Shown in pieces: positions 61,320 to 62,372 of a stretch of DNA of 64,000 bases. Numbering within the stretch: position 1 is the stretch's first letter; each line of letters begins with the position of its first letter. The stretch is from Candidatus Chloroploca asiatica (lineage in GTDB: Bacteria > Chloroflexota > Chloroflexia > Chloroflexales > Chloroflexaceae). The notes beneath the pieces are model-generated. The model did no database searches. It saw only the letters and a program-made list of their open reading frames with translations, and had not been told where the DNA came from. The DNA lies in NCBI RefSeq assembly GCF_002532075.1, contig NZ_LYXE01000110.1:124001-188000 (forward strand), given 5' to 3'. Made by a program: the position numbers and the translations under genes.

Positions 61320-62144
61320 TTAAAAATCCCAGCCCTCAGGCAACGCATATCTTTCGCGGCGCCAGCGCCAGTCCGGCTCAAAAATGAGGCCCGGTTCTTC
61401 GGCGGTATAGAGCTTTTCGAGCGCGTAGTGGATCACGTTTAACTGTTGCGCGGCATTGCCTGGTTCGCCGAGCGGATGCCCAAACGGCCACTTGAGATGC
61501 ACCGTACGCGGCGGGCGCACCCGCTCGGCGATCTCGCGCAGCCCGACAATGCTCACCGTTGCGATGCCAGCCGCCTCAGCGGCCCGTGCGATCAGTCCCA
61601 CGGACTGATTGCAGAGTCCTCAGCCAGGGGTGAGCAGCAGCGCATCGACGCCTTCCTCGCGCATCAAACGCGCCGCCTCGGGAGCCGTCTCATTGATCAA
61701 AGCCTCAAGATGGGGTGGCTCGATATGGCCCATAAAACCATAGCATGTACCCAGGCTGCCGATATGGCCGGCAGCAACAAGATCGCGTAGATGTTCCAGC
61801 GGAAAGAGAATATTGAGATCACGGACGGCATTGGTATGATCGTAATAGTCATGCGTGATCATCAGATCCTCACGCGGGGTTGCGGCGGGTAGCGGGCGAA
61901 AGGTCGCATCGCCCCGCGAATCAGCCATATCAAACGGCGTCTGATTGCGCAGATGGACACCGCCTGTCGTCGCGAGGGCGAGGCGCACCTCACGCAACGG
62001 CTTCGGCAACCGGGTAAACGGCACCTCTTCACTGATCACCGACTCAAACGTGCGGCCCCACGTCTGAGCCAGAGCGGGCACATGCGACAAAACCTGTCCA
62101 AACATTCGCGACAAATTCTGGCGCAACCCATCAAAATCTGACAT
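61320..62144 (-). CDS. GrdB/PrdB-family reductase-like protein, probable selenoprotein (in-frame TGA at codon 175)
   Basis: One gene of 275 codons on the - strand, interrupted by TGA at 61622-61620. Upstream of it is MSDFDGLRQ through LATTGGVHLRNQTPFDM, ITHDYYDH and VDALLLTPG; downstream, in the same frame, comes GLCNQSVGLIARAAEAAGI and RPPRTVHLKWPFGHPLGEPG. In glycine/sarcosine/betaine/D-proline reductase selenoprotein B-family relatives this site reads TP-C-P-x-C-NQS or has Sec. Reading TGA as Sec gives U-G-L-C, a redox UxxC motif. A SECIS-like stem follows. TGA is a normal stop for other genes here, so the code is not reassigned. AAGGGA seven bases before the ATG at 62144 supports the start. 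Substrate unknown; a nonsense mutation is the alternative. Confidence 0.82.
61587..61613 (-). promoter_or_regulatory. Candidate bacterial SECIS element
   Basis: In the mRNA, six bases after the UGA, UGC-A-AUCAGUCC pairs with GGACUGAU-C-GCA around the loop GUG: an 8-bp upper stem, one A-C mismatch and a 3-bp lower stem. The first loop base is G and lies 19 bases after the UGA. Known bacterial SECIS rules ask for a G in the first two bases of a small apical loop, 16-37 bases after UGA, on a 4-16 bp upper stem; all are met. Confidence 0.75.
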
Positions 62145-62159
62145 GTACTTTTCCCTTAT

Positions 62160-62220: not shown

Positions 62221-62303
62221 CAACCTTTTCTTATTGTAACAAAGCTTTGGCAAGGTCGCCTCCGGCGGGAGGGTGTGGCGCGGCTGCGCCGCGTCACGAG
62301 ATT

Positions 62304-62348
62304 TTTTTGGTTCGTTGTGGCGGCGAAGCCGCCACAACGAACCAAAAA
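62304..62348. terminator. 21-bp bidirectional terminator
   Basis: TTTTTGGTTCGTTGTGGCGGC-GAA-GCCGCC... is a perfect stem with T and A runs at its outer ends, so it reads as an intrinsic terminator on either strand. It lies 25 bases past the - strand stop of the secreted protein at 62373. Further GC-rich palindromes (CCTCCGGCGGGAGG, GGCGCGGCTGCGCCG) occupy 62261-62294. Confidence 0.85.
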
Positions 62349-62372
62349 CTGGGAATTGCCGGAAAAAGCACG

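Follow-up and report, generated by a model that had tools for sequence, protein, structure and literature searches.

A PrdB-like gene of Candidatus Chloroploca asiatica with an in-frame UGA and a SECIS-type hairpin very probably encodes a selenoprotein

We analyzed a 64,000-nt stretch of the genome of Candidatus Chloroploca asiatica, a photosynthetic bacterium of the green filamentous type (GCF_002532075.1, contig NZ_LYXE01000110.1, positions 124,001-188,000), hereafter the window, whose own numbering is used for coordinates below. On its minus strand lies a reading frame, 62144-61320, with a single interruption, a TGA at codon 175 (61622-61620), after which translation continues as UGLCNQSVGLI... 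on to a TAA (Table 1). An earlier interpretation made from the DNA letters (the sequence-only reading) had proposed that two adjoining minus-strand frames are one frame split by this TGA. Profile searches bear this out, as TIGR04483, the PrdB model, spans residues 40-252 of the joined protein (E=5e-49) and also matches each half singly (E=5e-31 for the first, E=2e-9 for the second).

The gene is neighbored in the window by a convergent ABC transporter ATPase gene and, upstream, by a gene for a large hypothetical protein. These neighbors are not conserved outside the genus, and operon context was therefore dropped as a guide to function. Elsewhere in the family, a rhodanese-like gene lies upstream in about 14 loci, mostly of the Desulfuromonadales type, and a DUF547 gene lies directly upstream in Chloroflexus; both associations are weak hints. 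A Herpetosiphonaceae genome and a Thermodesulfovibrionia genome each carry two distinct PrdB-like selenoprotein genes on the same strand, within 2-3 kb of one another (L064:4413 and 6490; L092:4821 and 7260). Upstream of the Chloroploca gene, at 62240-62360, the window also carries a near-perfect palindrome (TTTTTGGTTCGTTGTGGCGG followed by its reverse complement). This is a dispersed repeat with 28 BLAST matches in the genome, many of which pair up as opposite strands of a single palindrome, and one copy adjoins the tRNA-Sec gene on contig C33.

Table 1. Features of the PrdB-like locus, in window coordinates
Feature	Position	Strand	Details and basis
Selenoprotein CDS, PF07355 / PrdB-like (predicted)	61320..62144	-	274 residues, Sec at residue 175, stop TAA
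Predicted Sec codon TGA (U175), opening the U-G-L-C redox motif	61620..61622	-	TGA in 121/122 sites; nine distant homologues encode Cys
Bacterial SECIS core, 8-bp stem AUCAGUCC/GGACUGAU with GUG apical loop	61591..61609	-	Fold, covariation, synonymous conservation peak
Whole predicted SECIS hairpin, including lower stem	61581..61619	-	Minimum-free-energy fold; the covariation test concerns the 8-bp core stem
Shine-Dalgarno-like AAGGGA	62152..62157	-	7 nt upstream of ATG 62144; sequence
In-frame GTG, possible gene-caller start for the second half	61599..61601	-	Is the SECIS loop; without ribosome site

The sequence-only reading had assigned the protein to a GrdB/PrdB family. This holds at the superfamily level, where the protein scores 27.5 bits against PF07355 (GRDB superfamily; curated cut-off 22), but not at the level of the named enzymes: with the PrdB equivalog model TIGR04483 it reaches 166.8 bits, short of the curated cut-off of 300, and the GrdB (TIGR01917), GrdF and GrdH models give 40-47 bits where 602-800 are required. 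TIGR01918, a general model for the subfamily, likewise stays below its threshold (44 bits against 65). In a wider alignment, all 47 of 47 members match PrdB/Grd models, with PrdB the best. The C-terminal part is homologous to GrdB, GrdF and GrdH, the selenoprotein B of glycine, sarcosine and betaine reductase, and Sec stands at the corresponding place; these proteins are, however, about 435 residues long, compared with 274 here, and no GrdE-type partner was found in the genomes searched.

That the protein is a true PrdB, the subunit of D-proline reductase, is suggested by the best NCBIfam match (PrdB, E 5e-49), by the UxxC motif with Sec that the protein shares with clostridial PrdB alongside homology over residues 40-252, and by the filing of such genes as proline reductase PrdB in the literature. 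Unlike clostridial PrdB, the Chloroploca gene falls below the equivalog cut-off and is isolated. A profile search for PF09338, the PrdA/GrdE-type family, which we take to cover PrdA, also speaks against this identity: no such protein was found in the 100%-complete draft assembly of Chloroploca, nor in its two congeners, a further member of its family (G029) or Herpetosiphon (G053), making five Chloroflexales genomes in all, whereas the positive controls, three Chloroflexota genomes, all gave strong matches. In D-proline reductase, the Sec subunit acts with a pyruvoyl group on the partner subunit (Kabisch et al., 1999, as cited in the available text of PMC13188914). Since this pyruvoyl-bearing partner was not found, the Chloroploca protein is probably not a proline reductase subunit, an identity we regard as very unlikely, and a stand-alone redox enzyme becomes the likelier reading. 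Motif and distant homology point, with fair probability, to a thiol/selenol redox enzyme that works on its own and is a distant relative of the Sec subunit in proline and glycine reductases; gene neighbors vary across the family.

Downstream of the TGA, the RNA is predicted to form the GUG-loop stem at SECIS spacing that the sequence-only reading had pointed out. The stem arms (61609-61602 and 61598-61591) enclose a GUG loop (61601-61599) located 18 nt after the UGA, and the predicted folding energy of the 48-nt Chloroploca RNA is -20.7 kcal/mol (z -2.46), matched or bettered by 5 of 200 shuffles. Across 79 distinct sequences, the 8-bp stem is paired in 96.8% of cells, compared with 6.5-52.5% in a control in which the partner was slid by one to three columns. 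Stem cells changed on both sides number 25 against a shuffled mean of 4.5 (0/500 shuffles as high), and the stem covariation score is 0.219 versus 0.141. Synonymous identity, that is, codons being the same given the same amino acid, reaches 0.88 at codons 179-185 against a gene mean of 0.48; this seven-codon stretch is the most conserved of the gene at synonymous sites and coincides exactly with the hairpin. Part of the stem conservation is due to coding, because the stem overlaps conserved protein sequence, but synonymous and compensatory changes speak against coding as the whole cause: the stem shows a synonymous double change from CAG...CTG to CAA...TTG, and a change from Ser TCC to Thr ACC can be accompanied by GGA to GGT in the Gly codon, so that the pair is kept. 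The contrast between Sec and Cys forms in minimum-free-energy z-score alone is weak (p 0.06, with nine Cys forms).

The hairpin also bears on whether the locus encodes two separate proteins, the first stopping at the TGA and the second restarting at GTG 61601. This GTG is in frame and is the only candidate start near the second half. As the sequence-only reading had claimed, the second half has no start with a ribosome site of its own: the GTG sits within the stem-loop, in the loop itself, and no Shine-Dalgarno-like sequence is found at normal spacing. Moreover, it is TGA, not TAA or TAG, that is retained at the Cys-equivalent position. The predicted structure (47 homologues; mean pLDDT 93.2, pTM 0.92) is a single alpha/beta domain, modeled with high confidence as continuous through the junction, in which Sec175 lies in the loop that follows strand 168-172 and helix 178-191 begins with Cys178. 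We consider a two-protein arrangement very unlikely. A PDB sequence search returned no solved relative, and what fold searches turned up was of a generic alpha/beta kind (best Foldseek E 0.045; best Z 7.4).

Codon 175 is TGA in 121 of 122 homologous sites drawn from Chloroflexales, relatives of Geobacter and Desulfuromonas, Nitrospirota and others, a set in which some species are present twice via two collections; the remaining site is TGC, and conservation at this level lies well outside chance. Named GTDB genomes were added from Chloroflexus, Oscillochloris, Herpetosiphon, Geobacteraceae, Desulfuromonadales, Nitrospirota and others, among them Candidatus Chloroploca mongolica (96% identical) and Chloroploca sp. 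Khr17 (95%). With duplicates dropped and a further sample added, distinct Sec-form sequences number 105. The gene was matched in 31 of 61 related genomes, with TGA in every match covering codon 175. Eight further distant homologues, beyond the TGC site mentioned above, carry TGC or TGT at this codon within a CPLC motif, bringing the Cys forms to nine. The homologue alignment thus agrees with the proposal that the TGA of U-G-L-C takes the place of the first Cys in CxxC homologues. The CPLC homologues, from other Chloroflexota (L141-L149), belong to the same family by alignment and have Cys exactly at the Sec column, but they are 35-40% identical to the Chloroploca protein and have largely lost its type of hairpin.

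Cys at codon 175 in distant homologues would also fit a TGA that arose by nonsense mutation or sequencing error while relatives encode Cys, the locus then being a pseudogene or an artefact. However, TGA is found in the 95-97% identical relatives and in every relative at the order level, which speaks against a strain-specific change. Downstream of the hairpin, dN/dS is 0.02-0.09 in most close pairs, equal to or below its value before the TGA, so that the region past the TGA is, judging from these comparisons, under purifying selection at the protein level. The presence of TGA in 121/122 sites refutes this explanation, which we regard as having a negligible chance of being correct.

Throughout the alignment, TGA is confined to the Sec/Cys column, except in double-TGA paralogues, where the second TGA also falls at a Cys column. 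These paralogues, with the motif U-P-I-U, a putative double-selenocysteine arrangement, were seen in three other Chloroflexota genomes (L035:1909-1956, plus strand; L151:626-673, minus strand; L150:806-853, plus strand), and their hairpin is unlike the main-family type. UxxU is described for a few other prokaryotic families in the available text of a 2026 review (PMC13188914), which does not mention PrdB among them. Another homologue (L158, minus strand, codon at position 851 of the reversed locus) has the motif U-P-H-I-C, in which Sec and Cys are apparently set one residue further apart.

The Chloroploca assembly holds every component of the Sec insertion machinery that was searched for: a tRNA-Sec (70.4 bits; ARAGORN type tRNA-SeC, anticodon TCA), selA (558 bits, cut-off 268), selB (321 bits, cut-off 242) and selD (379 bits, cut-off 125). 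The matches to selA and selB are free of in-frame stops, while that to selD (L047; G000 contig C166:7661-8590) contains one in-frame TGA, and selD is therefore probably a selenoprotein gene as well. The absence of selB and selC, which the sequence-only reading had named as evidence that would overturn its proposal, is thus not what the genome shows. Among 61 related genomes, scored for selA or a strong tRNA-Sec, one or the other is present in 31/31 genomes with the gene and in 19/30 without it (Fisher p 1e-4, kinship ignored), and none of the 11 genomes lacking both has the gene. Among gene-bearing genomes, selA is missing from two and tRNA-Sec from one, each of them an incomplete assembly (76-88%). 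An apparent large serine recombinase gene abuts the 3' end of the Chloroploca tRNA-Sec gene (L001:1-1593, G000 contig C33), as if a mobile element, whose far end would lie beyond the contig, may have used it as an integration site. Genome-wide reassignment of TGA, for instance to Trp, for which one could argue in that Sec at residue 175 is read from sequence, is the least credible alternative of all, given the complete insertion system, the selA and selB matches without in-frame stops and the restriction of TGA to the Sec/Cys column, bar the double-TGA paralogues.

Taken together, machinery, TGA conservation, coding constraint past the TGA, RNA structure with stem covariation, and co-occurrence form five agreeing lines, and because of them we take the selenoprotein gene to be real: with a probability of roughly 96%, the Chloroploca gene encodes a selenoprotein with Sec at residue 175. 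The proposal that an in-frame TGA and a SECIS-like stem mark a probable selenoprotein is thereby supported. From comparative genomics we infer that the UGA is recoded. SelB, with GTP and Sec-tRNA(Sec), would recognize the hairpin just 3' of the UGA, and selenocysteine would be put in at residue 175 in place of termination. Sec175 and Cys178 would then most likely form a reversible Se-S pair.

A selenoprotein family described as PrdB, with a UxxC motif, has been on record since 2005. The Sargasso Sea survey listed 42 selenoproteins under "Proline reductase PrdB" with UxxC (PMC1088965), and the GOS survey counted 235 in the family, as pfam07355 (PMC2398784). The available text of a 2006 genome survey (PMC1794560) assigns selenoproteins of the proline reductase type to Anaeromyxobacter and to one Geobacter, and puts the selenoproteins of Chloroflexi at three without giving names there; that of the 2026 review (PMC13188914) places D-proline reductase under TIGR04483. 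The Chloroploca gene resembles the PrdB family of Zhang and Gladyshev (PMC1088965, PMC2398784, PMC1794560) in its Pfam family, its UxxC motif and the bacterial SECIS after the UGA. Beyond clostridia, that family occurs widely (Sargasso Sea, GOS, Anaeromyxobacter, a Geobacter), and its name implies proline reductase, for which the Chloroploca gene context gives no support. Our literature search found no report naming the Chloroploca gene, which is a new and very well supported member of a catalogued, functionally unexplored selenoprotein family.

We lean slightly toward the view that the non-clostridial "proline reductase PrdB" proteins are mostly separate, stand-alone selenoenzymes that have no pyruvoyl partner and catalyze an uncharacterized redox reaction, with the Chloroploca gene representing a Chloroflexales branch and some paralogues now being UxxU. 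Ordinary gene calling would break the Chloroploca gene into two, and the RNA signal of the hairpin is strong enough for training or testing selenoprotein finders. The family is almost always in the Sec form in Chloroflexus, Herpetosiphon, Chloroploca, relatives of Geobacter and Nitrospirota. It is named after an enzyme whose partner subunit is missing in the five Chloroflexales genomes checked; "proline reductase" may be the wrong name for most of its members, and their real substrate is a testable question.
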